A stretch of DNA of 64,000 nt from Methylophilaceae bacterium 11 (lineage in GTDB: Bacteria > Pseudomonadota > Gammaproteobacteria > Burkholderiales > Methylophilaceae): positions 1,922,001 to 1,986,000 of the forward strand of contig JCKJ01000001.1 in assembly GCA_000525025.1 (NCBI GenBank), written 5' to 3'. Each line of letters begins with the position of its first letter. Positions within the stretch are counted from its first letter, which is position 1. The translations under genes were made by a program, and so were the position numbers. Below the pieces are notes generated by a model, which was not told the origin of the DNA, searched no databases, and saw only the letters and a list, made by a program, of their open reading frames with translations. This document shows positions 2,741 to 40,823 of this stretch, in pieces.

Positions 2741-3340
2741 TTATTTCATCGAATCTTTCATCACCGGCCATGCCGCTTTTAAATAATAAGCCATTGATAC
2801 CAATGTTAAAATTGCTGCGATGATAATCAGCACTTGCCCAACGAACTTGGTGTTGAAGTGTCCAATATTGTCGTAATAAAGTAGTAATAAAATCGCTAGC
2901 ATCTGTGCAGCGGTCTTCACTTTACCAATCATCGCCACTGCCACGTTGCTACTTTTGCCAATATTGGCCATCCATTCGCGCAAGGCACTAATGGCAATCT
3001 CCCGCCCAATGATAATTAATGCAATCACTGCGCCTATACGCTCAAACTCCACCAACACAATCAAGGCAGCAGCCACCATCAATTTATCGGCCACCGGATC
3101 TAAAAAAGCACCAAAGCCGGACATTTGATTAAACCTACGTGCCCAGTAGCCATCAAGCCAATCGGTAACGGCGGCCAACGCAAATACGATAGTAGCAGTG
3201 AAGTTTACCCAGTGCGCTGGAAACGCAGCCAGCGTCATGGCATCTTTAGGTAGATAAAAAATTCCTACGAATACAGGAATCAAGGCAATCCGCAACACCG
3301 TTAAAATATTTGGCACATTCCACAACATAGTTTTAATCAC
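2741..3340 (-). CDS. pgsA: CDP-diacylglycerol--glycerol-3-phosphate 3-phosphatidyltransferase
   Basis: This inner-membrane enzyme makes phosphatidylglycerol phosphate from CDP-diacylglycerol and glycerol-3-phosphate, the committed step to phosphatidylglycerol and cardiolipin. The CDP-alcohol phosphatidyltransferase signature is complete: D60-x2-D63-G64-x2-A67-R68-x8-G77-x3-D81-x3-D85. Several hydrophobic helices follow. The frame opens with a GTG directly after the uvrC stop, but an ATG four codons later (at 3328, MLWNVPNILT) resembles the usual family N-terminus, and neither start has a clear ribosome-binding site. Synteny with uvrC upstream and tRNA-Gly/tRNA-Cys downstream is conserved across many proteobacteria. 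Confidence 0.93.
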   Translation of the reverse strand: MIKTMLWNVPNILTVLRIALIPVFVGIFYLPKDAMTLAAFPAHWVNFTATIVFALAAVTDWLDGYWARRFNQMSGFGAFLDPVADKLMVAAALIVLVEFERIGAVIALIIIGREIAISALREWMANIGKSSNVAVAMIGKVKTAAQMLAILLLLYYDNIGHFNTKFVGQVLIIIAAILTLVSMAYYLKAAWPVMKDSMK

Positions 3341-5158
3341 TTAATGAAATTGATCATAGATTTTTTCTGCAAGAGACTGGCTCACACCATCTACTTTTGC
3401 AAGTTCATCTATGCTAGCATTTTTTACGCCGTCTAAACCACCAAAACGGGTGAGTAGCGCTTTGCGGCGTTTAGCACCAACGCCTTCAATGTCTTCCAAA
3501 CTAGAAGTGATCCGCGCTTTGCCACGTTTGGCACGGTGCCCTGTAATGGCAAAACGGTGTGCCTCGTCACGGATACGTTGTAATAGATGCAAACCTTGAT
3601 TGTCCTTTTCCAAGTTGAGCATTTCGCCGGTATCCGAGAAGATCATGGTTTCCAAGCCCGGCTTGCGCTCCTCGCCCTTGGCAATCCCCACCAGCAAAAT
3701 ATCGTCCAACCCAACCTCTTGCATGACCTCAATTGCAATGCCTAATTGCCCTTTACCACCATCAATAAACACCAAATCCGGGCGCTTACCTTCACCAGCA
3801 GCCACTTTCTTATAGCGTCGTGTCAGCACATCGCGCATCGCAGCATAATCATCCCCCGGTGTGATGCCTGTGATGTTGTAACGGCGATATTCGCTGTTTT
3901 GCATATCACCTTTATCAAACACCACACAGCTGCCTACGGTCGCCTCACCCATGGTATGGCTAATATCAAAGCATTCAATGCGCTCTACGGTTTCGGATAA
4001 GTTTAATGCTTCACGCAAGGCAATCAATTTGGCTGCTTGATTAGCAGAGGAAGCAGCACGTTGCGATAACGCCAGTTCCGCATTGGTATCTGCCATTTTT
4101 AACCAGACACGTTTATCGCCAATGGGATTGGTAATAATCTTAATTTTGCGCTGCGCTTGCTCGCTTAACACCTCTTCAAAATCTCTGGCTGCAATCTCTA
4201 CACCACAGACAATCATGGGGGGGGTATTTTGTGCGGTGTAATGCTGGGTAATAAACGCTTCTATCGTTTCACTCAGTTCAGCATCCTGACTATTTTTTGG
4301 GAAAAAGCTTTTATCCCCCAAGTGACGGCCACCACGAATCATCACCAAGTTAATGCAATGCTGCCCCTCCAATGCCTGGCAGGCAATGACATCAGCGTCA
4401 GATACTGTGAAATCGCTCACAAACTGCTTGGCCTGCACTTGCCGTAAGGCTTGCATACGGTCACGAAACACCGCAGCAGCTTCGTACTCCTGATTGGCGG
4501 CGGCCGTGTTCATTTTATCGCCTAGCACATCCATCACCTCACTGGTTTTACCTTCCAGAAACAACGCCGCATGGTGCACATCTTGTGCATAGTTTTCTTG
4601 ATTGATGTAACCCACACAGGGCGCGGTACAGCGCTCGATTTGGTATTGCAGGCAAGGACGTGACCGGTTAGCAAATACCGTATTTTCGCAAGTCCGTAAC
4701 TTAAACACTTTTTGTAGCAGCTGTATGCTCTCACGCACCGCCACTGAGTTAGGGAAAGGGCCAAAGTATTGACTGCGCCCTGTAGACTTGGTGGCTTGGC
4801 GTTGCGTCCCACGATGAAATGCCAGCCTTGGAAAAGCATCACCTGTCAGTGCAATATAAGGGTACGATTTATCGTCCCGGAACAGGACGTTATAGCGCGG
4901 CATTAAGCCTTTGATCAGATTATTTTCCAGCAACAACGCTTCGGCTTCAGACCGCGTCACCGTGGTTTCAATCTTGGCGATTTGCGACACCATCATACGT
5001 GTACGCGGGCTAGGCAGATTTTTATTAAAATAGCTGGAAACGCGCTTTTTAATGTCTTTTGCTTTGCCTACATAAATCACCACTTCTTCCGCATTCATCA
5101 TGCGGTATACCCCAGGCAGATTGGGCAGGTTTTTTAAAATAGGTTTAGGATCAAACAT
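3341..5158 (-). CDS. uvrC: Excinuclease ABC subunit C
   Basis: UvrC makes the two incisions around bulky DNA lesions in nucleotide excision repair, acting on the UvrB-DNA complex. The N-terminal GIY-YIG nuclease (GVYRMM...VIYVGKA, residues about 16-33) makes the 3' cut. A UVR (UvrB-binding) segment lies near residues 205-240. The RNase H-like endonuclease region holds ECFDISH and VFIDGGKGQL, and a tandem helix-hairpin-helix ends the protein. The length of 605 aa is normal. The stop codon directly abuts the pgsA frame, so the two are almost certainly co-transcribed. Confidence 0.97.
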   Translation of the reverse strand: MFDPKPILKNLPNLPGVYRMMNAEEVVIYVGKAKDIKKRVSSYFNKNLPSPRTRMMVSQIAKIETTVTRSEAEALLLENNLIKGLMPRYNVLFRDDKSYPYIALTGDAFPRLAFHRGTQRQATKSTGRSQYFGPFPNSVAVRESIQLLQKVFKLRTCENTVFANRSRPCLQYQIERCTAPCVGYINQENYAQDVHHAALFLEGKTSEVMDVLGDKMNTAAANQEYEAAAVFRDRMQALRQVQAKQFVSDFTVSDADVIACQALEGQHCINLVMIRGGRHLGDKSFFPKNSQDAELSETIEAFITQHYTAQNTPPMIVCGVEIAARDFEEVLSEQAQRKIKIITNPIGDKRVWLKMADTNAELALSQRAASSANQAAKLIALREALNLSETVERIECFDISHTMGEATVGSCVVFDKGDMQNSEYRRYNITGITPGDDYAAMRDVLTRRYKKVAAGEGKRPDLVFIDGGKGQLGIAIEVMQEVGLDDILLVGIAKGEERKPGLETMIFSDTGEMLNLEKDNQGLHLLQRIRDEAHRFAITGHRAKRGKARITSSLEDIEGVGAKRRKALLTRFGGLDGVKNASIDELAKVDGVSQSLAEKIYDQFH

Positions 5159-7632: not shown

Positions 7633-8178
7633 ATGCAAGAAAACACCAACATTAGCCCAAGCCAATACAAACAAAGCAACATCATGACCAATATTTTGTT
7701 TGGTAGCCGCTGGTTACAACTGCCTCTTTACTTAGGCTTGATCATTGCACAAGCCGTATATGTTTACTTTTTTGCAGTAGAACTTGTGCATTTGGTGGGC
7801 AAAACTGCCACCATCAGCGAAGCCGATATCATGTTGATTGTGTTAGGCTTAATTGATGTAGTGATGATCTCAAACCTACTGATCATGGTCATTGTGGGTG
7901 GGTATGAAACCTTCGTATCGCGCTTAAACTTAAAAGGCCACCCGGATGAGCCAGACTGGTTATCTCACGTGAATGCCAACTTGCTTAAAGTCAAACTGGC
8001 TACCGCGATTATCGGCATTTCATCGATTCATCTGCTCAAAACCTTTATTAATGCTGCAAATTTGAGCAACGATGTCATGATGTGGCAAACCATTATCCAC
8101 ATGACGTTTGTGGCTTCAGCGGTTTCGATTGCTTATATCGATAAGCTGATGACACACGCGGATGATAATAAGCACTAA
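7633..8178 (+). CDS. UPF0114 (YqhA) family membrane protein
   Basis: An inner-membrane protein of 181 aa with four predicted helices. The family motif FGSRWLQLPLYLGLIIAQ appears near the N-terminus and the block around VGGYETFVSRLNL in the middle; both are typical of the YqhA family, whose function is unknown. A second ATG at 7684 (MTNILFGSRWL) would match the common family start better, and neither start has a strong ribosome-binding site. It ends 4 bases inside the convergent DUF2914 gene. Confidence 0.85.
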   Translation: MQENTNISPSQYKQSNIMTNILFGSRWLQLPLYLGLIIAQAVYVYFFAVELVHLVGKTATISEADIMLIVLGLIDVVMISNLLIMVIVGGYETFVSRLNLKGHPDEPDWLSHVNANLLKVKLATAIIGISSIHLLKTFINAANLSNDVMMWQTIIHMTFVASAVSIAYIDKLMTHADDNKH

Positions 8179-9245
8179 TACTTATAGCGAATATGGCGAG
8201 GAGTTCCCGTCTCCTCGCTCACAGTAAATGATTGAACGGCAATGGTTTTTTCATTCTCCGTTTCAATCCTCACCCGCCACTCCCCTAGCGATATATTTTG
8301 CTTGTAGGTATAGCCGCGATAACCATTGTTACGCCCACCGTTTAAATCAAAGCCAATGCGCGATTGCGTCTGCCAACCGTTTTTCTTTGAATACAATTGC
8401 CAGCGATGATACAAACGCACCTCTAGCCCTGCTGGTGCAAATATGGGGGAAAAGCAATATAGCCGTTGTCCGGGCACTACTTTCAGGTGGTTACTTGTCT
8501 TGCGCCAAAACTGCCATATCGGGCCACGCTGCTGGATAATAAAGTAGTTGCCGTCTTCTTTTTTCACGTCATACGCAATGGCAACGTCACGTGTCACCAA
8601 TGGCACCGGAGGAATCATATCCGCCGCATAGGCCAGCATGAGCACTCCGGCAATCAGCCACACCGGCAGAATGCTACCCAGATTCTGCGGAGTCTTGGAA
8701 TACAGATAAATCACCAAACTCGCACCCAAAATCGTACTGAGATAAAACCAAATCGGATGCACGCTCCCGAATAGAAACGGCAACAGAAAGTTAAACAGTA
8801 AAATCGCGCACAAGCCAAACAGCGCCCAGCTTAAAGTAAATCGACGATATGCATTTTCTAAAAACTCATTGGCAATGAGTAAAACGCCAAGAAGAATGGA
8901 GGTGAGGAAAGCCAATGCATGATTAGCGCTTTTAAAATACAAAATAAACAGCGCACTCAACAAGCTACCATACAAAAACTGAAGCGCTAGATAAGGCCAA
9001 CCTGTTGTAAAAAACCAGTGCAAACGCTTGGGTATCGTTGTCTCATCTACCAAAATAAAACTTGGACGGCTCATGATATACAGCAACATGCCCGCCGCAA
9101 ATAAATACCCGGTAAAAATCAGCAAGTCAGATGTGGCTACGCTACGGCCAATGGTGAGTGCATCCCATATAAAGCCTGAAAAAAAGAAGATAACAGGCAA
9201 AAAACCCGCGAGTTTACTGACTCGCTGGTACATTTTAGTTTGCAT
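8175..9245 (-). CDS. Membrane protein with C-terminal DUF2914 domain
   Basis: A 356-aa protein. The first ~220 residues are mostly hydrophobic, with about seven predicted helices. The last ~130 residues (from about VTRDVAIAYDVKK) form a soluble, Trp- and Tyr-rich domain matching DUF2914 (WRVRIETENEKTIAVQSF near the end). Family function is unknown; the domain probably faces the periplasm. It may be one transcription unit with the methyltransferase 33 bases upstream. Confidence 0.75.
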   Translation of the reverse strand: MQTKMYQRVSKLAGFLPVIFFFSGFIWDALTIGRSVATSDLLIFTGYLFAAGMLLYIMSRPSFILVDETTIPKRLHWFFTTGWPYLALQFLYGSLLSALFILYFKSANHALAFLTSILLGVLLIANEFLENAYRRFTLSWALFGLCAILLFNFLLPFLFGSVHPIWFYLSTILGASLVIYLYSKTPQNLGSILPVWLIAGVLMLAYAADMIPPVPLVTRDVAIAYDVKKEDGNYFIIQQRGPIWQFWRKTSNHLKVVPGQRLYCFSPIFAPAGLEVRLYHRWQLYSKKNGWQTQSRIGFDLNGGRNNGYRGYTYKQNISLGEWRVRIETENEKTIAVQSFTVSEETGTPRHIRYKY

Positions 9246-9278
9246 ATGCTTACTAGAAAGAATTTTTGAAATTACCGA

Positions 9279-10154
9279 CTACGGCTTGAAAGCTCTGATA
9301 GGTTTAGCGCGCTTTAATGAAGCTTGATAAACATCCCAATAACCACTCTCAAAGCAATCAATTGCACTGGCAAAATAAATTCGATAATGATCGTAAAGCT
9401 CAGCACCATATTTCGCGATTATGGTGTCACGATGCATCTGCAATCTCCTGTCCCACTCAATCAAAGTTGGTACATAATCCAGCCCTATTGTTGTCGCCTC
9501 TACAATTTGATATTTATCAATAATACCTGCTTGAATATCACTAATGGAGGATAACGCTGATCCAGGAAAGACCTTATCTTTTAGATATTTCGCCCCCCTT
9601 AACTCTTTGAGGTTTTCTGCATGTCTTGTAATGATAATCGACTGCAAACCAATATATGCATCATCTGTAGTGACGCTCAAGCACCAATCAAAAAACTTTT
9701 TATAAACGTCTCTTTGTAGCCCTGCCTCGCTCTCTTCAAATGTTGCAAAATGCTCTAAAGCACAAACACTTACAATAGCATCATATTTTTTTTCAGGTAC
9801 TGCAACGTCTTCCCAAGAGATAGGGCTTGCAGATACGTTCTGTTTAACCAAGCTATTGATATAAGCAGCTTGATTTGAGCTAAGTGTTACTCCATATGCG
9901 TTCGTATCTAAATATTCATCAGCAATGTATGACAATAATCCGCCCCAACCACAACCGACATCAATAATATTTTGACCTTTTTGTATATGCGCATACTGGC
10001 AAAGTCTTTTAAATTTATTGACCTGTGCCTGGACTAGATCTTCGGTACCATCCCATACTGCACAAGTATAAGTACGATATTTTTCATCTAAAAATAGAGC
10101 AAAAAAATCATTATCCACATCATAGTGACTCTCAATGTCGTCTTGTGTTGCCAT
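9279..10154 (-). CDS. Cyclopropane-fatty-acid-synthase-like SAM methyltransferase
   Basis: A 291-aa class I SAM-dependent methyltransferase. The start region (YDVDNDFFALFLDEKYRTYTCAVW) and the SAM motif IIDVGCGWGGLLSYIA match cyclopropane/mycolic acid synthases, which add a methylene to unsaturated acyl chains. It lacks the N-terminal extension of E. coli Cfa (382 aa), so the substrate may be another small lipid or a specialised metabolite. The ATG at 10154 is preferred over an upstream TTG because GAGG lies 6 bases before it. Base composition looks clearly more AT-rich than the neighbouring housekeeping genes, a possible sign of transfer. Confidence 0.75.
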   Translation of the reverse strand: MATQDDIESHYDVDNDFFALFLDEKYRTYTCAVWDGTEDLVQAQVNKFKRLCQYAHIQKGQNIIDVGCGWGGLLSYIADEYLDTNAYGVTLSSNQAAYINSLVKQNVSASPISWEDVAVPEKKYDAIVSVCALEHFATFEESEAGLQRDVYKKFFDWCLSVTTDDAYIGLQSIIITRHAENLKELRGAKYLKDKVFPGSALSSISDIQAGIIDKYQIVEATTIGLDYVPTLIEWDRRLQMHRDTIIAKYGAELYDHYRIYFASAIDCFESGYWDVYQASLKRAKPIRAFKP

Positions 10155-10471
10155 CGCATTCCTCAACAGTATTAAATTAATTTAGATATACAGGAAATTT
10201 GACACCCGTACCTGCTACAAATCAGGCTTGATATTACACCAAACAAATAATAAGCGATTAAAACAAGCAATAAATTATCTAAGCAAAATAAACAACTAAT
10301 CATCACTGATTAAATTCTGTCGAACATGATGAATTATGAATATTTAACCCCTCATCAATTAGCACATCAAATAAATAACACATTGTTTTTAAATGTAAAA
10401 TTTAAAATAAAAGCAATGGCATAAACATTGCTTTTTCTTATTAAAATATAATTTTCTAGAGGAGAAGCTTG
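10155..10471. other. 317-bp AT-rich intergenic region between methyltransferase and RpfC-like kinase
   Basis: This stretch separates two divergently read genes and must hold both promoters. It is very AT-rich, which makes -10-like words common and uninformative; I could not assign a -35/-10 pair with confidence. The only clear element is the GAGGAGAAG ribosome-binding site just before the kinase start at 10472. No open frame or RNA gene is supported. Confidence 0.5.
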
Positions 10472-12682
10472 ATGTCCCAAACAAGTAATACACTTCTAGC
10501 TGACTTTAAGATTAAAAATAACATCAAAAACAATCTAAAAAGCATGTTCAGTTTCATAGGCTTTAATAAACACGGAGAAGAATATCAGCAAGCTATTCTT
10601 CGTGTCATTATTATTGGGCTGACCATATTTTTTATGCACTTCTCTTATGCAAGCATCAGAGTAGAAACCTCCATACTAATGTATGCGTTTGCATTCAGCT
10701 CATTAGCCATCCTGCTACATACACGTCTTAACTCAAATCCGAATAAAAAAAGACTGTTGCTAGTGATGCTTTTGGACGTGTTAGGTTCATCACTTTCCGT
10801 TTACTTCACCAATGACATCGGAGCAGTTTTTATTGGTGTATATCTCTGGTTAATTATCGGCTACGGTTTTAGATTCGGACGCCAGTTACTGATTGCAACC
10901 TACATTGCCAGCCTGACTGGCTTTGTCATTGCCAGCCTCAACAGCCCATACTGGCAATCGAACATGACAGGCTTCTATGGCTTGTTATTCACGCTTGTAT
11001 CTATCCCCATGTATGCATTGGCTTTACTCAACCGATTAAAAGAGGCCACTTACAAGGCAGAGGCTGCCAGCCGTGCAAAAAGTGAGTTCCTTTCACATAT
11101 CAGCCACGAGATCCGCACTCCGCTTAACGGGATTGTGGGTGCATGCAGCTTGTTAGAGGCCTCTAACCTAGATAAAAACAATGCAACGCTCTTTAACGTG
11201 ATGAAAAACTCATCTAATGTATTGCTTGAACTTGTAAATAACGTGTTGGATTTATCAAAAATCGAGAGTGGCAAAGCCGTTGAGCACAAAGAGGATTTTT
11301 ACTTACAAAACCTGATTCTGACTACTGTCAACTTATTCGAGACGCAAGCCAATCATAAAGGCATTGTCATTGACTATGACATTGCGCAGGACACCCCATT
11401 AAAATTGCACGGCAATTTATTGCATACCAAACAAGTGCTGATTAACTTAGTGGGTAATGCCGTTAAGTTTACCGAACAGGGCTCTGTCTACGTAAGGGTG
11501 ACCGCTGCTAAACATTCACAAGGTAAAGTGATTGTCCGTTTTGAGGTCAAAGATACCGGTATCGGTATTTCAAAAGAATCCTTACCACATATTTTTGAGA
11601 GCTTTACGCAAGCCGAAGAATCTATTAAATACAAATTTGGCGGTACTGGTTTAGGCACCACTATCTCTAAAAAGCTGGTGGAATTAATGGATGGTGAAAT
11701 CGGGATTGAGAGTGAGTTGGGTCAAGGCTCTACTTTCTGGTTTGAGATTCCACTAGACGTTGTCACCAATGAGGACACTGAAGGTCAGGTTTCATCTGAA
11801 ATCATTTCCTTCAAAAAAGCCATGCAAGCCAGCAAGAGAAAACCTTGCCGCATTTTGGTGGCAGAAGACAACGAGACCAATATTCTTATCTTGTCACAAA
11901 TGTTGGCACTAGGTCAGCATCAGTTTGATGTTGTTAAAAACGGCCAACAAGCGCTGGATAAACTCGAAGAGACTACTTACGACTTAATGATTTTAGACTA
12001 TAACATGCCGGTAATGGGCGGTTTAGAGGCGTTACGTATTTACCAAGCCATTAATGTTGGCTTGCCACAAATACCTTCCATTATTTTGAGCGCCGATGCC
12101 ACACATAACACCATTGCCGAATTCGATGAGTTGGGCGTTGCCGCTTACCTCACAAAACCTATCCAAATTGATGCATTGAATCTTGCCATTGAAGAAGTGG
12201 TTGCAAAATCCAAACAAAAATCTTACCGCGATGCCGCACCTGTGGTCTCATTTGCCGCCAGCAAAGAGCAAGTGCTCAGCGAAGAACCAAGTGCAATCAT
12301 TGCATCCTACACTGGCAATACCGCACTTAACTTGGCACGTTTGGCAGAGTTAGCTTCTATTAGTAAAAATGCAGGGTTTGTTGAAAGCTTGATTCTAGGC
12401 TTTATTGAAGATACCGATAGAAACTTGAGCGACTTGAAAGTGTATGTGCAAGCGCTAGATTTTGCGAATATTCATGACACGGCGCATGCGATTGCAGGGA
12501 GTGCGACCAACATTGGCGCTGAGGAACTCAGCCAGATTTGTGTAGAGTTAGATGACATTACACCAAATGAGATTTACAAGGTGCCTACATTGTTTGCGCA
12601 AGCTAACCATGCATACCAAAACACCAAGCTAGCGTTTGCAGATTACCTTGCGACGCATGCGCAGCAAGCTTCAGCAAATTAG
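10472..12682 (+). CDS. rpfC: RpfC-like hybrid sensor kinase (DSF receptor type) with REC and HPt domains
   Basis: A 736-aa inner-membrane hybrid kinase. Five or six hydrophobic helices fill residues about 40-195. The HisKA box SHISHEIRTPLNG follows (phospho-His at about 212), then a HATPase with GTGLGTTIS, a receiver domain (CRILVAEDNETN, phospho-Asp about 509 in ILDYNMP) and a C-terminal HPt domain (HAIAGSATNIGA, His about 672). The order 5TM-HK-REC-HPt and the sensor motif GYGFRFGRQ are those of RpfC, the receptor for diffusible signal factor. Its convergent neighbour is an RpfF-like synthase, which strongly supports this reading. ATG at 10472 has a good GAGGAG site. No rpfG gene is adjacent, unlike in Xanthomonas. 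Confidence 0.82.
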   Translation: MSQTSNTLLADFKIKNNIKNNLKSMFSFIGFNKHGEEYQQAILRVIIIGLTIFFMHFSYASIRVETSILMYAFAFSSLAILLHTRLNSNPNKKRLLLVMLLDVLGSSLSVYFTNDIGAVFIGVYLWLIIGYGFRFGRQLLIATYIASLTGFVIASLNSPYWQSNMTGFYGLLFTLVSIPMYALALLNRLKEATYKAEAASRAKSEFLSHISHEIRTPLNGIVGACSLLEASNLDKNNATLFNVMKNSSNVLLELVNNVLDLSKIESGKAVEHKEDFYLQNLILTTVNLFETQANHKGIVIDYDIAQDTPLKLHGNLLHTKQVLINLVGNAVKFTEQGSVYVRVTAAKHSQGKVIVRFEVKDTGIGISKESLPHIFESFTQAEESIKYKFGGTGLGTTISKKLVELMDGEIGIESELGQGSTFWFEIPLDVVTNEDTEGQVSSEIISFKKAMQASKRKPCRILVAEDNETNILILSQMLALGQHQFDVVKNGQQALDKLEETTYDLMILDYNMPVMGGLEALRIYQAINVGLPQIPSIILSADATHNTIAEFDELGVAAYLTKPIQIDALNLAIEEVVAKSKQKSYRDAAPVVSFAASKEQVLSEEPSAIIASYTGNTALNLARLAELASISKNAGFVESLILGFIEDTDRNLSDLKVYVQALDFANIHDTAHAIAGSATNIGAEELSQICVELDDITPNEIYKVPTLFAQANHAYQNTKLAFADYLATHAQQASAN

Positions 12683-12712
12683 TAGTGCAGAAAAACGAAA
12701 ACGATCAATGAG

Positions 12713-13642
12713 TTATGAAGCTGCGCGTTTGATAGAAACAACATTGTCCGCCACTGGCGAAGTATGTGGCATCGGTGCAGTTAAGTATTGCTTTTCTTGG
12801 CTGTAGATAAAGCGATCCATGATGCTAAATTCACGCTCGCCTAGTTTTAAAGCGGTATCTACCCAAATTTTGGTGATATCCAACAGCTCATCATAAGTAA
12901 TAGGATTGACTCTATTTTTGGCACGTTGCGCAGCCAAGTAACCGTTAAAGTAGCGCTTATTTTTTTCAATCCATTCATACACCGCTTTTTCACCTTGACC
13001 GTCATCGACCAGCACATCAACCAAACCAAGCTCAAATGCTTGTTCGGCTGTATATTGTTTGCCTTTGAGGATCATTTCGTCAGCGACTTTCATGCCTGCT
13101 TTACGTGCAACTAAGCTATATCCGCCCATACCAGGGAACATGTTGAACAAAATCTCAGGAAAGCCAAAATAGCTTTTGCGTTCAGCAATGATGACATCGC
13201 TGGCCAACGCTCCTTCCAAACCGCCGCCCAAAGCCAAGCCCTGAACCAAAGTGATGTTGACGATAGAGGAGTTATTGAACCGTGACAGCCTGCTATGCAG
13301 AATATCAATGCCTTTAATTGCGTAATAAAGTAAAGCGTCTTTGTTTTTATTTAAGGCTAATTCACGAATCAAGGCAAGATGTCCGCCTAGGTTGAATACA
13401 TTGGGTGTGAGCGATGCTGCAACAGAATACTTCACTTGAAAAACACGGTCATTGGAGTACAACACGCCCGCAGCTTTTTCAAGCTCTTGCTGGTGTTGGG
13501 TTAACTCGTGAATAATTTCATGGTTGGCACAAGGAATGATATTTTTCTGATTAAAGTAGGTCCATAAAACCTCATGGCTTTCATCATATTTTAACGATAA
13601 CTGCTTAAAATGATTACTTAAACCAAATTCAGAAATATTCAT
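12713..13642 (-). CDS. rpfF: RpfF-like DSF synthase (crotonase fold)
   Basis: A 309-aa crotonase-superfamily enzyme of the kind that dehydrates 3-hydroxyacyl-ACP and releases the free cis-2-unsaturated fatty acid used as diffusible signal factor. The two glutamates essential in RpfF are present with the right spacing: Glu143 in ALGGGLEGAL and Glu163 in GFPEILFNMFPGMGGY, 20 residues apart as for E141/E161 of Xanthomonas RpfF. The long N-terminal extension before the crotonase core also fits RpfF and not ordinary enoyl-CoA hydratases. The gene is convergent with the RpfC-like kinase (30-bp gap) and divergent from an ACP gene. Acyl chain length of the product cannot be read from the sequence. 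Confidence 0.83.
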   Translation of the reverse strand: MNISEFGLSNHFKQLSLKYDESHEVLWTYFNQKNIIPCANHEIIHELTQHQQELEKAAGVLYSNDRVFQVKYSVAASLTPNVFNLGGHLALIRELALNKNKDALLYYAIKGIDILHSRLSRFNNSSIVNITLVQGLALGGGLEGALASDVIIAERKSYFGFPEILFNMFPGMGGYSLVARKAGMKVADEMILKGKQYTAEQAFELGLVDVLVDDGQGEKAVYEWIEKNKRYFNGYLAAQRAKNRVNPITYDELLDITKIWVDTALKLGEREFSIMDRFIYSQEKQYLTAPMPHTSPVADNVVSIKRAAS

Positions 13643-13675
13643 TAAAATCTCGCACTTTAAACAAAGCTTTATGGC

Positions 13676-13681
13676 ATTATA
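13676..13681 (-). promoter_or_regulatory. Probable -10 element for rpfF
   Basis: On the minus strand a perfect TATAAT lies 34 bases before the rpfF ATG, inside the 98-bp region shared with the divergent ACP gene. The matching -35 region is weak, which might indicate activator dependence or simply low basal expression. Confidence 0.4.
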
Positions 13682-13740
13682 TTCTAGTTATTTAAAAATA
13701 ATATAGCCGAAAAGGCGAATTGTGATAAGGATACCGTTGA

Positions 13741-14001
13741 ATGAGCAAAGAAGTTGTCAATAAAGACGAAATTAAAACGTTTTTAACTGAAATATTTACC
13801 AAAGAAAAAAATATCCCCGCAGAAAAGTTAACCGCAGAACAAGCTTTAAAGGATTTAGACATTGATTCTTTCGGCTTTCTTGAAGTGATTTTTAGTATTG
13901 AGCACCAATACAACATTTCTTTCCCTAAAAATTATGAGCATATTGTGACGGTACAAGATTTAGTCAACGTCACACATGACTTAATTGCAGCAAAAAACTA
14001 A
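13741..14001 (+). CDS. Acyl carrier protein (dedicated, next to DSF synthase)
   Basis: An 86-aa acidic carrier protein. The phosphopantetheine attachment serine is Ser43 in DLDIDSFGFLE, where the usual DSL reads DSF; helices before and after fit the ACP fold. It is not the housekeeping AcpP (normally beside fabF/fabG with DSLDxVE). AAGGATA lies about 9 bases before the ATG. It sits 9 bases before the ketoacyl synthase gene, so the two form an operon, and it is divergent from rpfF, whose enzyme family uses acyl-ACP substrates. Confidence 0.88.
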   Translation: MSKEVVNKDEIKTFLTEIFTKEKNIPAEKLTAEQALKDLDIDSFGFLEVIFSIEHQYNISFPKNYEHIVTVQDLVNVTHDLIAAKN

Positions 14002-14010
14002 GTTTTTAGT

Positions 14011-15261
14011 ATGAAACACCAACGTCGCGTAGTGGTAACGGGCTTTGGTCTGGTGTCCCCTTTGGGCAACACCATCGAAGATTTATCCGCAAATGTATTT
14101 TCCGGAAAATCTGGTATTCAACAATTTGTCGGCCCATATTTAGATAAACTCTCCTGCAAAGTGGCTGCACAGGCGGACTTTGACCCTACCCAATACTTTG
14201 AGAAAAAAAGTGACTATTCCATTCTCGACAGAAATGGGCAAATGGCGCTACATGCCAGCAAAGAAGCGGTTAAACACGCACAACTTGATACTGATAGGCT
14301 GAACAAATTACGCACTGGCGTGTATGTAGGTACTGGCATGGGGGGTATCCATTCGGTAGAAGATGGTTACCAGACGCTATTTGTGGAAGGTGAAAACCGC
14401 TTAAAACCATACACCGTATTGATGTGCATGTACAACAGCGCAGCGGCAGCTATTGCTACCCATTTTTCCATTTCTGGTCCTAACCTTACTTTCTCAACAG
14501 CATGTTCATCTTCGGCCGTGGCCATTGGCCAAGCCATGAAAGATATACGCTACGGTGAAATTGATGTGGCATTGGCTGGTGGTACCGATGCGATTTTGGC
14601 CTACGCCAGTATTAAATCGTGGGAAGCGATTCGCACGCTGGCCGAAGAAGACAAAGAAGATATCAGTAAATCCTGCAAACCATTTTCCGCCAACCGTACT
14701 GGCTTGGTGATTGGCGAAGGTGCAGCGACGGTGATTCTAGAAGAGTTATCCCACGCACAAGCCAGAGGTGCGCATATTTATGCAGAGATTGTGGGGTATG
14801 GCGCAGCCAATGATTTTAAACATATTGCCGTGCCGTCGGTCGAGGGTCAGGCCGCAGCCATGCAAAAGGCTTTGGATGATTCCGGATTAAATCCTCAATC
14901 AATTCAATACATTAACGCACATGGCACCGGCACAAAATTCAACGACGAAACCGAGACCAACGCCATCAAGCAAATTTTTGGTGATCACGCTTACCAATTA
15001 GCAGTCAGCTCAACTAAATCCATGCATGGTCATTTGATGGGCGCAGCGGGTGTGCTAGAAAGCATCATCACTTTACTAGCTATGCAGCGTAACGAGTTAC
15101 CGCCTACTATTAATTTGCAACAAGCAGACCCTAAGTGCGATTTGAATTACGTACCAAATCAATCACAACAGGTCGATGATTTAGAGTACGCTATGTCGAA
15201 CTCATTTGCGTTTGGCGGCACTGGGGCAACACTGATTTTTAAGAAATCAGTGTCCGGATAG
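14011..15261 (+). CDS. Beta-ketoacyl-ACP synthase II-type enzyme
   Basis: A 416-aa condensing enzyme of the FabF type that elongates acyl-ACP with malonyl-ACP. The Cys-His-His triad is complete: Cys165 in STACSSSAVAIG, His304 in NAHGTGT and His341 in KSMHGHLMGAAG. It follows the ACP gene by 9 bases and lacks a FabF housekeeping context (no acpP, fabG or fabD). It therefore looks like a specialised KAS working with its own ACP, possibly to supply the 3-hydroxyacyl precursor for the DSF synthase; a reductase would have to come from elsewhere. Its last 15 bases overlap the convergent membrane-protein gene. Confidence 0.88.
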   Translation: MKHQRRVVVTGFGLVSPLGNTIEDLSANVFSGKSGIQQFVGPYLDKLSCKVAAQADFDPTQYFEKKSDYSILDRNGQMALHASKEAVKHAQLDTDRLNKLRTGVYVGTGMGGIHSVEDGYQTLFVEGENRLKPYTVLMCMYNSAAAAIATHFSISGPNLTFSTACSSSAVAIGQAMKDIRYGEIDVALAGGTDAILAYASIKSWEAIRTLAEEDKEDISKSCKPFSANRTGLVIGEGAATVILEELSHAQARGAHIYAEIVGYGAANDFKHIAVPSVEGQAAAMQKALDDSGLNPQSIQYINAHGTGTKFNDETETNAIKQIFGDHAYQLAVSSTKSMHGHLMGAAGVLESIITLLAMQRNELPPTINLQQADPKCDLNYVPNQSQQVDDLEYAMSNSFAFGGTGATLIFKKSVSG

Positions 15262-15672
15262 CATACTCCCGAGTACAAACCCAATCACAATGCCGATAAT
15301 CAGTGCGATGGTGAGTCCGCGGTAGGTTAAGACATCTTGGCTGTAACCACGGCGGATGGCAACATAGGACACAATATAGCCAAGTGCATTGAGCAACCAG
15401 ATAACCGAGAGGCTAAGCACTTTGACGACCAGCGGGCCAATGATCGGCACTAGTCCGACCATTCCTACCAGCCAAGCAAATACACCCGAGATAAGGCCAA
15501 TCACCACTGCCCCACCAGCAATGATTTTATAATCAATGTGGTAGTGGTTACCCAAATAAATCAGGACGGCAAGTAATAGTAAGACTGGCAACATCATACG
15601 CCAGTCTTTCCATCTAAATTTGCCGAAGAGGTTACTTTCTTGTTGTTTCAAATGATTACTTTCCAAAGCCAC
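15247..15672 (-). CDS. Small membrane protein downstream of acnB, function unknown
   Basis: A 141-aa protein with a polar 30-residue N-terminus and four hydrophobic helices (about 28-45, 50-70, 75-103, 118-138), one rich in Gly and Val (ALIIGIVIGFVLG). I do not recognise a family. Its ATG immediately follows the acnB stop, so it is probably translated by coupling from the acnB message. It overlaps the KAS gene tail to tail by 15 bases. Confidence 0.7.
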   Translation of the reverse strand: MALESNHLKQQESNLFGKFRWKDWRMMLPVLLLLAVLIYLGNHYHIDYKIIAGGAVVIGLISGVFAWLVGMVGLVPIIGPLVVKVLSLSVIWLLNALGYIVSYVAIRRGYSQDVLTYRGLTIALIIGIVIGFVLGSMLSGH

Positions 15673-35930: not shown

Positions 35931-36120
35931 GAGTGAATCATGCAACCAAACATTATGTATCCAAATAGTCACAGCAAAGTGCAGAACCACACACTTCAAT
36001 CTATCTAAAAAATTAGCCTAGAAATAGCCTTTTAATACGCCAATCAATTTGCGCACGCATCCTCTACCCTACTAGCTTCCCACAAAATCGTTGGGCGTTT
36101 GCAAGTAAACAGGTAGATTG

Positions 36121-39100
36121 ATGATAGAGATTCAACATTTTATTTATCGCGATGGCGATCCCACTCCGCTGCTTTATGGCACTTATGACCCTTGGTTGGT
36201 TGCGTTATCCGTGACCATTGCCATCGGCACATCGGTGCTAGGCATGCAGTTGGCGCGCGTTGCGCGCAAGCAAACTTCGCTATTGCTCAAACAGGCCTCT
36301 ATCATTGCGGGCTCTATATCACTGGGTGCCGGCATTTGGGCCATGCATTTTATTGGCATGATGGCACTCAACCTTTGCACGCGTGTCGATTACGATACGT
36401 TCACCACCATACTTTCCATGGCGCCTGCGGTAGTGGCTTCTTGGTACGCACTATATTTACTCTCGGGCGACAAACTCACTTACCAACGCTTATGGTTAGG
36501 TGGCACGTTGGTAGGCGCTGGCATTGGTGCGATGCACTACACCGGCATGCTGGCCATGCAAATGGCGCCTGTTTTAAAGTTTGATATCCAATGGGTACTT
36601 GTTTCTGTTGTAGTAGCCGTAGTACTAGCCACCAGTGCGCTGTGGACAGGCTTACACCTCAATCAACAAAAACGCCTGTCTTCTCTCTACTCGCTAGTGT
36701 TAAGTGGCAGCCTGATGGGCATTGCCATTGCCGCTATGCACTACACTGGCATGGCTTCTGCGCGTATTCTGGGCACTGCCGATCAGCAATATAACGCGCT
36801 CAACAACCACTCATCTTCATTATCGCTGGGCATCTTTCTGGTCACAACGCTCATTGCAATTCTGGCTGCGGCCATCAATGCGCTGATTCACTACAAACAA
36901 ATGCTGCATTCGCTGCAATATAACCAATCGCGTTTACGCACTATTTTAGAGACGGCGGTAGATGGCATCATTACGATCGATATGAACGGGCGTATCCTGT
37001 CATTCAACCATGCCGCGGAGCAGTTGTTTGGCTGGAAAAATGAAGAAATGCTGGGTAAAGACACAACTATCCTGATGCCCAAAGCATACAGTGTGCGCCA
37101 TAACCATTTTTTAAAAAATTTTGGTAAGAATGGACAAGCCAAAATCTTAGGGGTTGGACGCGAGGTTACCGGGGTACGCAAAGACGGTTCAACTTTCCCC
37201 ATGCGCTTAGCAATTGGCAAAGCTGATATTCCTGGTGAAACGGTGATTGTTGGATTCATCACCGACTTAACACAACGTAATGCCATGAAAACCGCAGTGC
37301 GGGAACGTGACGAACAATTACGTTCATTGATGTCAAATATTCCCGGCGTTACCTTCCGCTGCCTGTATAACCAAGACTGGAAAATGCTGCTGATTAGCGA
37401 GTCAGTGAAAGATCTTACCGGTTGGACGGCTGAAGATTTCTTGAAAAACAAGCTGTCATTCAGCTCATTTACCCATTCTGATGATTCCACACGCATCGCC
37501 ACAGAAGTAGAGGAAGCACTAGCCAAAGGCGAGCACTATGCCATCGAATATCGCATTCGTCACCGAGATGGCCGTGAAAAGTGGGTCTCTGAAGTGGGTT
37601 GTGCGATTCGTGATAAAACGGGTGCAGTGCAAATGCTGGATGGCGTGATTTTGGATGTGACCGAAAACAAACTCAAAAATGCAGAGTTTGAAAGTATCGC
37701 GCGCGCCATCAATCAATCAACCAGCGTCGCCGAATTTACGATGGATGGCATGATTCTAGACGCTAATCCTACGTTCTTAACGCTTTTAGGCTACGAAAAA
37801 CACGAGATCATAGGCCGACACCACTCCATTTTTTGCTCTGCGCAAGATGCAGCGTCTGAACGCTATCGTAATAAATGGCAAGCGCTGAACAGAGGTGAAT
37901 TTGTACAAGGCGAATTCAAACGCCTCGGTAAAAATGGCTCCGAGCTTTGGATTCATGCTTCCTACAGCCCAATTTTAAATGCGGATGGTAAGCCCAGCAA
38001 AGTATTGATGTTCATGATTGATATCAGTGCGCGTATCCGTATGGAAAACGACCTAAAAGAGGCCAAATACAAAGCCGAGCAAGCTGCTAGCGCCAAGGCC
38101 ACTTTTCTAGCCAACATGAGCCATGAGATTCGCACCCCCATGAATGCAGTTATCGGTTTCAGCGAAATCATGATGGACACCAACATGCAAGATGAGCAAC
38201 GACGGTACATGCATACCATTAACAGCTCGGCAAAATCATTGCTGCATTTACTCAACGATATTCTGGACAGTGCGAAGCTGGAAAAAGGCAAACTGGAGCT
38301 GGAAATCGTAGATTTCTCCCTACATGAGTTGCTCGATAGCATTATTTCTACGCTGTGGGTGCAAGCCCGACGTAAACATTTAGAGCTACAACTCGAGTTG
38401 GCCCCTAACGTTGCTCCATATTATGTGGGTGCCCCCGATCGTATCCGCCAGGTATTGATGAACCTGCTTGGCAATGCGATCAAGTTTACCGAACAAGGCC
38501 ATGTTAAGCTGGTCGTCACCCAATTGGATCACCAGCAAGTATCGTTTTCCGTCATGGATAGCGGCATTGGCATTCCTCAAGATCGCTTAGATGTGATTTT
38601 TGAACCATTCACACAAGCAGACTCATCCATGAGCCGTAAATTTGGTGGCACAGGATTAGGGACCACCATCAGCAAACAGCTAGTGGAACTGATGGGCGGG
38701 CACTTAGTGGCAAAAAGCGAGATTGGCTCTGGCAGCTGTTTTACCATGATTCTGCCGTTGCAACTTGGCACAGTCCAAATAGAAAAAACAAAGCATCAAG
38801 CCTATGCATTGCCTGCCCTACGTATCCTTGTGGCGGACGACATTCGCCAAAACCTGGATTTGATCAGCATTTTGCTGGGCAGAGATGGTCATCACATTAC
38901 AACCGCTAGCAATGGGATTGAAGCGGTGCAGTACTTTAATCAGCAACCATTCGATTTGATTCTGATGGATGTGCAAATGCCTCAGTTAGATGGCTTGGGT
39001 GCTGCAACACAGATCCGAACCATTGAAACGGCGCAGCAGCTTGCACGCACACCCATCATTGCACTGACAGCCAGCGTGTTGCAAGAAGACCGCACTGCCG

Positions 39101-39828
39101 CTTACAAGGCTGGCATGGATGGCTTTGCAAGCAAACCTGTTGATATTGATGCGCTTACCCGTGAGATGATACGCGTACTCAACGGACATACTTCCACTGG
39201 CGCGGATACTCCGCCAAGCCTACAACTGCATACAAAAAATGACACCATAGACTTGGAAAAAGGGCTGGCTTTATGGGGCAATAAACCGCTTTATTTTCAA
39301 GAGTTAGCGCGCATCGTCGCCGACATTCCACTGCAAATGGCGCGTTTAGATAGCACGCTTGAGCAGCAGAACCCTCAGCAACTTGCTGGCTTGGCGCATG
39401 CAAGCAAAGGTATTTGCGGCAATCTGGCACTGCCCGCACTGTATGCACATTTCGCCATACTAGAAAAACAAGCCATGGCCGGAGATTTGGTCAGCGCAAC
39501 CGATACGTTGCATCACATTTCTACAGCTTGGCACACATTGCGCACATGGCTAGCGGCACAACCAGCAACAACTCCTGCAAGCATGATGCAAGCAGATGCA
39601 GCAGCCTATGATATCCCTATGCTGCAGACACAATTAACAGCGCTGGCACAAGCGGCTCAACTCGCTGAATTAGATGACAAACGCATGCAAGCAGTCTCCA
39701 CAATGGCGCCGGCTATATACCAACCTACTATCCAACTTATTTTGAATGCCTTTAACGACTTTGAATTTGAACTGGCGGCAACACATATCGTGCAGTTGCA
39801 ATCGCAAATTCAAAGCGGAGCACACTGA
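36121..39828 (+). CDS. MHYT-PAS hybrid sensor histidine kinase with REC and HPt domains
   Basis: A 1235-aa sensor kinase. The N-terminal MHYT membrane domain shows three repeats, WAMHFIGMMAL, GAMHYTGMLAM and AAMHYTGMASA, thought to bind metal or sense a diatomic gas. Three PAS domains follow (about 280-395, 400-520, 530-640). Next come HisKA (ANMSHEIRTPMNAV, His about 668), HATPase (GTGLGTTIS), a receiver (LRILVADD, Asp about 950 in LMDVQMP) and an HPt domain (HASKGICGNLAL, His about 1093). ATG at 36121 with AGGT upstream. Its stop overlaps the start of the HD-GYP regulator by one base, marking that protein as its likely partner. Confidence 0.92.
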   Translation: MIEIQHFIYRDGDPTPLLYGTYDPWLVALSVTIAIGTSVLGMQLARVARKQTSLLLKQASIIAGSISLGAGIWAMHFIGMMALNLCTRVDYDTFTTILSMAPAVVASWYALYLLSGDKLTYQRLWLGGTLVGAGIGAMHYTGMLAMQMAPVLKFDIQWVLVSVVVAVVLATSALWTGLHLNQQKRLSSLYSLVLSGSLMGIAIAAMHYTGMASARILGTADQQYNALNNHSSSLSLGIFLVTTLIAILAAAINALIHYKQMLHSLQYNQSRLRTILETAVDGIITIDMNGRILSFNHAAEQLFGWKNEEMLGKDTTILMPKAYSVRHNHFLKNFGKNGQAKILGVGREVTGVRKDGSTFPMRLAIGKADIPGETVIVGFITDLTQRNAMKTAVRERDEQLRSLMSNIPGVTFRCLYNQDWKMLLISESVKDLTGWTAEDFLKNKLSFSSFTHSDDSTRIATEVEEALAKGEHYAIEYRIRHRDGREKWVSEVGCAIRDKTGAVQMLDGVILDVTENKLKNAEFESIARAINQSTSVAEFTMDGMILDANPTFLTLLGYEKHEIIGRHHSIFCSAQDAASERYRNKWQALNRGEFVQGEFKRLGKNGSELWIHASYSPILNADGKPSKVLMFMIDISARIRMENDLKEAKYKAEQAASAKATFLANMSHEIRTPMNAVIGFSEIMMDTNMQDEQRRYMHTINSSAKSLLHLLNDILDSAKLEKGKLELEIVDFSLHELLDSIISTLWVQARRKHLELQLELAPNVAPYYVGAPDRIRQVLMNLLGNAIKFTEQGHVKLVVTQLDHQQVSFSVMDSGIGIPQDRLDVIFEPFTQADSSMSRKFGGTGLGTTISKQLVELMGGHLVAKSEIGSGSCFTMILPLQLGTVQIEKTKHQAYALPALRILVADDIRQNLDLISILLGRDGHHITTASNGIEAVQYFNQQPFDLILMDVQMPQLDGLGAATQIRTIETAQQLARTPIIALTASVLQEDRTAAYKAGMDGFASKPVDIDALTREMIRVLNGHTSTGADTPPSLQLHTKNDTIDLEKGLALWGNKPLYFQELARIVADIPLQMARLDSTLEQQNPQQLAGLAHASKGICGNLALPALYAHFAILEKQAMAGDLVSATDTLHHISTAWHTLRTWLAAQPATTPASMMQADAAAYDIPMLQTQLTALAQAAQLAELDDKRMQAVSTMAPAIYQPTIQLILNAFNDFEFELAATHIVQLQSQIQSGAH

Positions 39829-40823
39829 TGACACATCCTGCAATACTCCAACCAAGAGTGCTGATCGTTGACGATGAGCCCACTAATCTCAAAGTACTGA
39901 AACAAGTATTACAGCAAGACTATCGCCTGAGTTTTGCCAAAAATGGTGCCGATGCACTTGAGCTTGCCGCGCGTGAATTGCCTGACCTGATTTTGCTAGA
40001 TGTCATGATGCCGGAAATAACCGGGTATGAGGTCTGCCAACAACTGAAGTTAACCGCTAGCACCCAATCTATTCCAGTGATTTTTGTCACCGCACTGAAA
40101 GACGAAGTAGACGAAACCAAAGGCTTTGCGTGTGGTGCTGTGGATTACATTACCAAACCTATTACACCGGCTATTGTGAAGGCACGCGTGCGCACCCATC
40201 TTTCGCTAGTGCGTGCCGAGGAGCTGAAAAAGACACATCTGCAGCTCATTCAAAGGCTAGGCCGTGCAGCCGAATATAAAGACAACGAAACCGGTATGCA
40301 TGTAATGCGTATGAGCCACATATCAAAAATACTGGCACTGGCATTAGGCTTTAATGAAGACTTTGCCGATAAGTTATTACAAGCCGCACCCATGCATGAC
40401 ATTGGCAAAATCGGCATCCCCGACCATATCTTACTCAAGCCAGGTCGCTTAGATGACGAGGAGATGCGCATCATGCAGCAACACCCACTGATTGGCGCTG
40501 AAATTTTGGCGAATACAAACTCAGAGCTCATCAAACTCGCACATTCTGTCGCGTTGCATCACCATGAAAAATGGGATGGCACTGGCTACCCAGCCGGCAT
40601 CAAAGGTGAAGCAATTCCTATCGAAGGCCGTATTGTGGCGGTGGCTGATGTGTTTGACGCACTAACCAACAAGCGCCCCTATAAAGAAGCGTGGCCTGTG
40701 GACAAAACCATGGATTTTTTCAAAGAACAGCGTGGCAAACATTTTGACCCAAGCATAGTAGATGCCTTGGTGCGCGAGCTAGACCACATTTTGCAGACTG
40801 TCTCACAATGGCAGGATACCTAG
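39828..40823 (+). CDS. REC-HD-GYP response regulator (RpfG-type c-di-GMP phosphodiesterase)
   Basis: A 331-aa response regulator. The receiver domain spans 10-125 (VLIVDDEPTNLKVL, phospho-Asp in LILLDVMMP), followed by an HD-GYP domain with His190-Asp191 in MHDIGKIG, HHEKWDGTGYPAG (Gly253-Tyr254-Pro255) and VADVFDALTN. Such proteins degrade cyclic di-GMP when phosphorylated. Domain order matches RpfG. It is translationally coupled to the MHYT kinase, but could also serve the RpfC-like kinase 27 kb away, which has no adjacent partner. Confidence 0.93.
   Translation: MTHPAILQPRVLIVDDEPTNLKVLKQVLQQDYRLSFAKNGADALELAARELPDLILLDVMMPEITGYEVCQQLKLTASTQSIPVIFVTALKDEVDETKGFACGAVDYITKPITPAIVKARVRTHLSLVRAEELKKTHLQLIQRLGRAAEYKDNETGMHVMRMSHISKILALALGFNEDFADKLLQAAPMHDIGKIGIPDHILLKPGRLDDEEMRIMQQHPLIGAEILANTNSELIKLAHSVALHHHEKWDGTGYPAGIKGEAIPIEGRIVAVADVFDALTNKRPYKEAWPVDKTMDFFKEQRGKHFDPSIVDALVRELDHILQTVSQWQDT

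Follow-up and report, generated by a model that had tools for sequence, protein, structure and literature searches.

Why would the gene for a synthase of diffusible signal factor (DSF) lie next to genes for an acyl carrier protein (ACP) and a FabF-type 3-oxoacyl-ACP synthase (KAS)? The question is raised by the rpf locus at 10472-15261 of a stretch of 64,000 nucleotides from the methanol consumer Methylophilaceae bacterium 11 (contig JCKJ01000001.1, positions 1,922,001 to 1,986,000 of the forward strand), here called the window; the source genome (G000) is 1 contig of 2.79 Mb, 99.99% complete. We find that the KAS is extra to a housekeeping AcpP-FabF pair, and that the placement of the ACP and KAS genes at the rpf locus is not due to chance, because the same genes stand at rpfF-rpfC in 6 further Methylophilaceae genomes and the ratio of nonsynonymous to synonymous substitution (dN/dS) of the KAS is low. 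Our best reading, a tentative one that we hold at a little under an even chance, is that this is a DSF locus whose own ACP and KAS would supply the 3-hydroxyacyl-ACP used by RpfF, insulating the signal from membrane lipid synthesis. A preliminary description, made from the letters of the window, had named four genes, rpfC, rpfF, ACP and KAS, and a check of the open reading frames (ORFs) finds all four where it placed them:

10472..12682, plus strand: rpfC, with a hydrophobic N-terminal sensor region and HisKA, HATPase, REC and Hpt domains (Pfam)
12713..13642, minus strand: rpfF, 309 aa, predicted DSF synthase of crotonase fold, E143/E163 conserved
13643..13740, no strand: divergent region between rpfF and the ACP gene, 98 bp, partly conserved in an alignment with five relatives
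13741..14001, plus strand: specialised ACP, 86 aa, PF00550 above cut-off, recognition segment close to neutral
14011..15261, plus strand: FabF-type 3-oxoacyl-ACP synthase (KAS), 416 aa, Met at the FabF Ile108 position
9279..10166, minus strand: short methyltransferase of the CMAS family, divergent from rpfC; whether it belongs to the system is uncertain

rpfC and rpfF converge across a gap of 30 bp, rpfF and the ACP gene diverge from the 98-bp region, and ACP and KAS form a two-gene operon with 9 bp between them. Two details of the preliminary description stand as written: the ACP has D-S-F in place of D-S-L around its serine (Ser43), and the catalytic set of the KAS is complete (C165, H304, K336, H341).

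How widely is this arrangement kept among relatives? Of 187 Methylophilaceae genomes, the window's included, 52 have RpfF matches at E 0.001 or better and 49 at 1e-40 or better. The rpfF-rpfG-rpfC genes of Methylobacillus and Methylophaga were already listed in a 2015 review, in the portion of it available to us (PMC4504480). The statement of the preliminary description that DSF signalling is unusual in methylotrophic betaproteobacteria therefore has to be given up. Another 20 rpfF loci of the family were taken from 19 genomes; six of them carry both ACP and KAS at the rpf locus (L032-L036 and L039, the last with its KAS on the far side of rpfC); L040 is cut by its contig end, and 11 others are without the pair. 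A second scan of 49 loci, comprising these 20 and L003-L031 (29 genomes, flanks up to 1.5 kb), detects ACPs in the same 6 genomes and nowhere else. KAS proteins at least 70% identical to that of the window (70-93%) occur in at least 7 other genomes of the 187 among the matches listed, where short fragments may be missing. Among these matches 8 of 187 genomes are carriers when the window's is counted; 7 have the gene within an rpfF-rpfC locus and 1 at a contig end. The latter is G070, whose contig stops within the KAS, on the acnB flank of the same locus; its genome gave no rpfF match. The preliminary description had staked its idea on the pair not lying mostly away from rpfF, and 7 of the 8 carriers among the matches listed have it at rpf; the conserved rpfC-rpfF-ACP-KAS adjacency that it proposed to look for is present in the 6 further genomes. 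In L032 (4868-7375; genome G078) extra ORFs lie between the KAS and a 141-aa-type ORF adjoining acnB, and G070 (L162) looks similar there.

The KAS is under purifying selection like the neighbouring aconitase gene acnB, with dN/dS of 0.024-0.035 for both, at synonymous divergences (dS) that are high (1.6-2.7 for KAS, 1.6-3.2 over KAS and ACP pairs). dN/dS of the ACP is 0.023-0.109 in the three pairs for which it could be computed; synonymous sites of rpfF and rpfC are mostly saturated.

Beyond the family, a scan of contigs (best 80 of 534 loci) finds ACP and KAS near rpfF in 5 of 80, namely four loci from Methylophilaceae genomes counted already and L124, a Proteobacteria metagenome-assembled genome in which the KAS runs off the contig. 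In the same locus an ORF that reads as acyltransferase-like (2895-3725) follows rpfF. An even sample across the class comprises 369 genomes, 68 of them with RpfF at E 1e-40 or better, the window's genome being included in both numbers; with the window excluded, 69 loci from 67 other genomes could be compared. An ACP (PF00550, E 0.001 or better) lies within the rpfF locus in 10 of these 67 genomes (G436, G268, G287, G546, G201, G526, G266, G399, G277 and G500) against 0.70 expected, an expectation based on the 211 ACP matches that the 67 genomes have, for the stretches fetched and with genome sizes rounded. The excess has a Poisson P of 4e-9, or 7.5e-7 when the 8 GTDB families are each counted once. 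A KAS lies in the rpfF locus in 7 of the 69 loci (L246, L281, L285, L286 and L294-L296). ACP adjacency, usually with KAS, thus recurs in other families, as the search for it suggested in the preliminary description shows. The order of genes varies, with ACP, KAS and rpfF co-directional in L246 and the pair divergent from rpfF in L285, L294-L296 and L124.

On a KAS tree, in which the L124/L281/L286 and L246/L285/L294-L296 clades are without non-rpf relatives, the rpf-linked KAS form three clades, each with 100/100 support, and not one group. On a quick RpfF tree of 160 RpfF rows the presence of a linked ACP requires 6 changes, of which starred branches force 3; this tree leaves out the partial sequences L040, L292 and L297, those with rpfF split in two frames (L122, L287, L293), and L052-L055, which come from the same genomes as L033, L032, L036 and L039. 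The split frames of L122, L287 and L293 may reflect decay or sequencing error. Given that the linked ACP or KAS recurs in the class and that the rpf-linked KAS fall into separate clades, the pattern seems most simply explained by repeated recruitment to the rpfF neighbourhood of an ACP, in most cases along with a KAS.

Is the product of rpfF a DSF synthase? Its best relatives of solved structure are 5FUS, 6DGN, 3M6M and 7ZQ7, all RpfF/DfsA, at E 1.6e-45 to 9.9e-43, whereas the next crotonase follows at 3.1e-16. In accordance, the first 12 chains matched by a predicted model (16 sequences, mean pLDDT 77) are all RpfF/DfsA entries, with TM-scores by query of 0.73-0.79, and the model prefers 5FUS, 7ZQ7, 3M6M, 6DGN and 3M6N over any other crotonase. 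E143 and E163 are invariant in 16 of 16 aligned RpfF rows, the window's included, and align with the solved RpfF sequences; the catalytic glutamates of X. campestris RpfF are numbered E141/E161 (PMC9040811, seen in excerpt). The essential glutamate pair and the RpfF-like nature claimed in the preliminary description are borne out by nearest structures, fold and these residues, and in the tree against enoyl-CoA hydratases that it called for, the 160 RpfF rows separate from the E. coli outgroup rows PaaF and PaaG. The protein scores 186.6 bits against a cut-off of 550 for the NCBIfam RpfF equivalog NF053515 and passes the broader NF006452 (crotonase/enoyl-CoA hydratase family protein) with 326.4 against 177 bits. 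A comparison of RpfF with phage families gave no match. The nearest solved sequences and the fold matches rule out an ordinary enoyl-CoA hydratase. RpfF is a DSF synthase by descent, and this activity is the one predicted for it.

The partner kinase was likewise rightly described as of the RpfC type and convergent with rpfF, as its HisKA, HATPase, REC and Hpt domains show; in having such a hybrid kinase next to rpfF the locus matches RpfC/RpfG two-component systems. Its ORF opens at a TTG (10469), and the ATG at 10472 is the likelier start because a GGAG-like site precedes it. The phosphorelay positions H213, D510 and H673 are all occupied, and a simple hydropathy scan of the first 190 residues gives six peaks, two of them overlapping, which makes five transmembrane segments plausible. 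An RpfC-like kinase within 1 kb of rpfF and convergent with it is found in 58 of the 80 best contig-scan loci, 47 of the 69 class loci and 20 of the 20 Methylophilaceae loci, contig-cut loci being included in these denominators. No rpfG adjoins rpfC here. Absence of rpfG from the system is nevertheless ruled out, as an unlinked relative with REC and HD-GYP domains is encoded at G000:C1:2466062-2467111, sharing 67% identity across 350 aa with the REC-HD-GYP gene in the rpf locus of G158; synthase, sensor and regulator are therefore all present in the genome. In the window itself, at 36118-40823, a large hybrid kinase, MHYT- and PAS-like as read from its sequence, is followed by a REC-HD-GYP protein, and this protein ranks second among the RpfG matches of the genome (42%).

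Are the ACP and KAS of the locus distinct from those of general fatty acid synthesis? They are not the main pair of the genome, since a separate housekeeping AcpP-FabF pair is encoded at 1274514-1276005, which agrees with the private ACP and KAS implied by the preliminary description. The recognition segment of the window ACP has a net charge of -2, against -11 for the AcpP of the same genome and -11 for E. coli AcpP, so poor exchange with AcpP partners is to be expected; values of -2 to -8 are found in the remaining rpf-linked ACPs. All 15 rpf-linked KAS have an intact C-H-K-H catalytic set. At the position of E. coli FabF Ile108, a chain-length gate, the seven rpf-linked KAS of Methylophilaceae have Met and the other eight have Met, Cys, Leu, Ala or Phe. 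Among the KAS genes examined, those that come next in similarity (about 50-66% identical) belong to a conserved Methylophilaceae cluster away from rpfF, which contains an MtnX-like phosphatase, aminotransferases of the class III and DegT kinds, an alpha/beta hydrolase, an ACP, a pair of SMR-type transporters and a FemAB-like protein. This cluster (L163-L181, e.g. L169 4158-12031) has transporters that may also be called SMR/ArnEF-like, and its product is perhaps an amino-lipid; 11 of 20 fetched loci of the cluster also have a PmrAB-like two-component pair, which is absent from the L169 stretch. Elsewhere in the genome, at G000:C1:2542760-2558365, three more ketosynthase genes and two ACPs lie in a stretch that presumably resembles an aryl polyene cluster.

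What could the pair do for RpfF? In our best reading we infer the flow of substrate, the insulation and the identity of the signal as follows. With the private ACP as carrier, the KAS would lengthen an acyl chain, which a housekeeping FabG would reduce to 3-hydroxyacyl-ACP; reduction by a housekeeping enzyme is assumed because no reductase was seen among the neighbours scanned (7633-15672), nor was a second dehydratase. RpfF would then dehydrate the 3-hydroxyacyl-ACP to cis-2-enoyl-ACP and cleave it to a free cis-2-unsaturated fatty acid, which RpfC would sense on release. These two RpfF steps are consistent with the enzymes of other species, which according to the part of the study available act as promiscuous acyl-ACP thioesterases that dehydrate 3-hydroxyacyl-ACP and then cleave the thioester (PMC6361424). 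The separate ACP would keep the precursor apart from the acyl-ACP pool for membrane lipids, shielding that pool from RpfF, and the separate KAS would choose the chain. Three loci with an ACP and no KAS hint that the carrier, rather than the KAS, is the main point of the module. A broader proposal, which we consider possible and hold with distinctly less confidence, is that of a 'private-carrier' type of DSF locus assembled more than once, in which RpfF would act on an ACP of its own, often accompanied by its own KAS and sometimes near a CMAS enzyme, and not on AcpP; the leak of acyl chains would there be solved by insulation instead of RpfR inhibition or RpfB salvage, and signals would be lineage-specific.

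Several observations weigh against the supply of RpfF by its own carrier and synthase. In the class, 57 of the 67 genomes showed no linked ACP, some contig-cut loci being counted as lacking, and the loci with an ACP and no KAS in sight (L260, L278, L288) make up 3 of 10 in the class. The pair lies beyond rpfC in L281 and L286 and is co-oriented with rpfC in L294-L296. Within the family, L037 and L038 (genomes G039 and G142), with RpfF of the same clade, are without ACP-KAS at rpfF, as are the close relatives L042-L045 of Methylophilus, where rpfF-rpfC occupy the same acnB site; the pair has therefore been gained or lost there. With the rows that it includes, the KAS tree demands a minimum of only 2 changes of the rpf label against the KAS of the cluster away from rpfF, and the ACP changes on the RpfF tree may be losses. 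The seven rpf-linked Methylophilaceae KAS, one clade (100/100), nest within the KAS of the unrelated cluster distant from rpfF. The window KAS shares its Met at the FabF Ile108 position and its Ala at the Gly399 position with the KAS of that cluster, and two ACPs tested from it are also mildly acidic (net -4); pocket residues and low ACP charge are therefore not specific to rpf. B. cenocepacia RpfF was assayed on E. coli AcpP substrates, as reported in the available part of that work (PMC6361424). Docking of the ACP to RpfF is a prediction, and the KAS family would elsewhere make something else.

The main rival, unlikely on balance yet not lightly set aside, holds that the lipid made by the ACP and KAS is another one, such as a modified membrane or outer-membrane lipid, and that the two are output genes regulated by DSF. 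The nesting of the window KAS among those of the rpfF-distant cluster (nearest 62-66% identical) favours it, as does a CMAS methyltransferase near the locus in the window, L032, L033 and L036, whereas the other genes of that cluster are absent among the Pfam-scanned neighbours of the window (7633-15672), distinct KAS lineages stand beside rpfF, which output genes would not need, and the RpfF substrate is itself an acyl-ACP (PMC6361424, in excerpt). We give little credence to the idea that the pair is a spare copy for fatty acid synthesis that landed beside rpfF by chance and hitchhiked. Most rpfF loci examined do lack a visible linked ACP, which speaks for this idea; the linkage is nonetheless kept in 7 of 8 family carriers among the matches listed and under purifying selection, an ACP is linked in 10 of the 67 other genomes where 0.70 would be expected, and the recognition segment of the ACP is unlike that of AcpP.

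Two further rivals would keep the pair in signal synthesis and give it another part. In the division of labour between FabA and FabB, a KAS is paired with a dehydratase that forms a cis-enoyl chain. A KAS directly beside the cis-enoyl-forming RpfF resembles this, and its pocket positions differ from those of FabF, so that RpfF might act as a FabA-like partner whose cis-2-enoyl-ACP is extended by the KAS to a longer or doubly unsaturated signal (cis-4-enoyl, dienoyl) before release. We think this improbable: the RpfF thioesterase would normally release the chain first (PMC6361424, as far as available), no sequence feature was seen that indicates its loss, three loci have an ACP without KAS, and the same pocket residues occur in KAS unlinked to rpfF. 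The other is a larger module in which the CMAS enzyme alters the fatty acid by a cyclopropane or a methyl branch. CMAS stands beside rpfC in the window, L032, L033 and L036, between rpfC and rpfF in L289 (4661-5512), and after ACP-KAS in L281 (10522-11604; PF02353 E 1.5e-27) and L286 (10516-11586), with a further case near rpf in L269 (6794-7999); these cases come from separate lineages. Among the other class genomes, 4 of 67 have a CMAS gene near rpfF where 0.44 would be expected (P 0.001, which becomes 0.01 with L281 and L286 counted once). On the other side, near relatives of the window CMAS lie away from rpfF, on the same contig in G158 and on another contig in G039 and G142, and none is present in L034 or L039 (L035 is cut off at rpfC). 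We regard this version as a slim prospect; CMAS as a fixed core member is ruled out by its near relatives away from rpf in the family, and a weak excess near rpfF remains. The supply of RpfF by its own ACP and KAS stays the reading that we prefer.

What would such a supply mean? On the usual view, DSF signals derive from general fatty acid synthesis, and indiscriminate cleavage of acyl-ACP by RpfF is a recognised cost. Some bacteria deal with this leak through RpfB salvage and others through the FI domain of RpfR. The available part of one study raises the question of how bacteria without RpfB compensate (PMC6361424). In the genome of the window, rpfF is the sole ECH_1 (PF00378) match at E 0.001; as there is no second one, salvage by a crotonase-type beta-oxidation enzyme looks unavailable, in a genome where no search was aimed at RpfB. 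If the supply exists, a dedicated ACP would be a direct third solution to the RpfF leak, and the structure of a signal could become predictable from its gene cluster. More surprising than this one locus is that an ACP or KAS linked to rpfF recurs. The claim of the preliminary description that no DSF locus with this gene set had been described agrees with our search, in which the open-access literature, as far as its text was available (PMC4504480, PMC5941067, PMC9040811, PMC6361424, PMC7567580 and PMC12838280 among it), gave no description of a linked ACP or KAS at a DSF locus; no open-access paper was found that treats DSF, rpfF, acpP and fabF together.

How, then, does the locus compare with known systems? 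With rpfF/rpfC/rpfG of X. campestris it shares both RpfF glutamates, a convergent hybrid kinase RpfC with REC and Hpt, and a REC-HD-GYP relative of RpfG; it differs in that rpfG is not beside rpfC, RpfF is below the equivalog cut-off, and an ACP-KAS pair is linked. The precursors of DSF in X. campestris come from the fatty acid biosynthetic pathway, and its helper reductase FabG2 is a lone gene, according to the part of that report available (PMC5941067). The BDSF synthase DfsA/BCAM0581 of B. cenocepacia belongs to the same enzyme family, and its entry 5FUS is the best structural match; that system has RpfR as sensor, not RpfC, its enzyme was assayed with E. coli ACP (PMC6361424), and a linked ACP-KAS is not reported for it in those parts of the literature available. 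The rpfF-rpfG-rpfC clusters of Methylobacillus, Methylophaga, Leptospirillum and Thiobacillus place DSF genes in methylotrophs and others, with no ACP or KAS mentioned in the excerpted text (PMC4504480), and Methylobacillus glycogenes L105 shows none near rpfF. With FabF and AcpP themselves, the pair shares the KAS family and catalytic residues, and the ACP family and phosphopantetheine serine, whereas the window KAS is 40% identical to the FabF of its own genome and falls in a separate clade, and the recognition segment of the window ACP is far less acidic.

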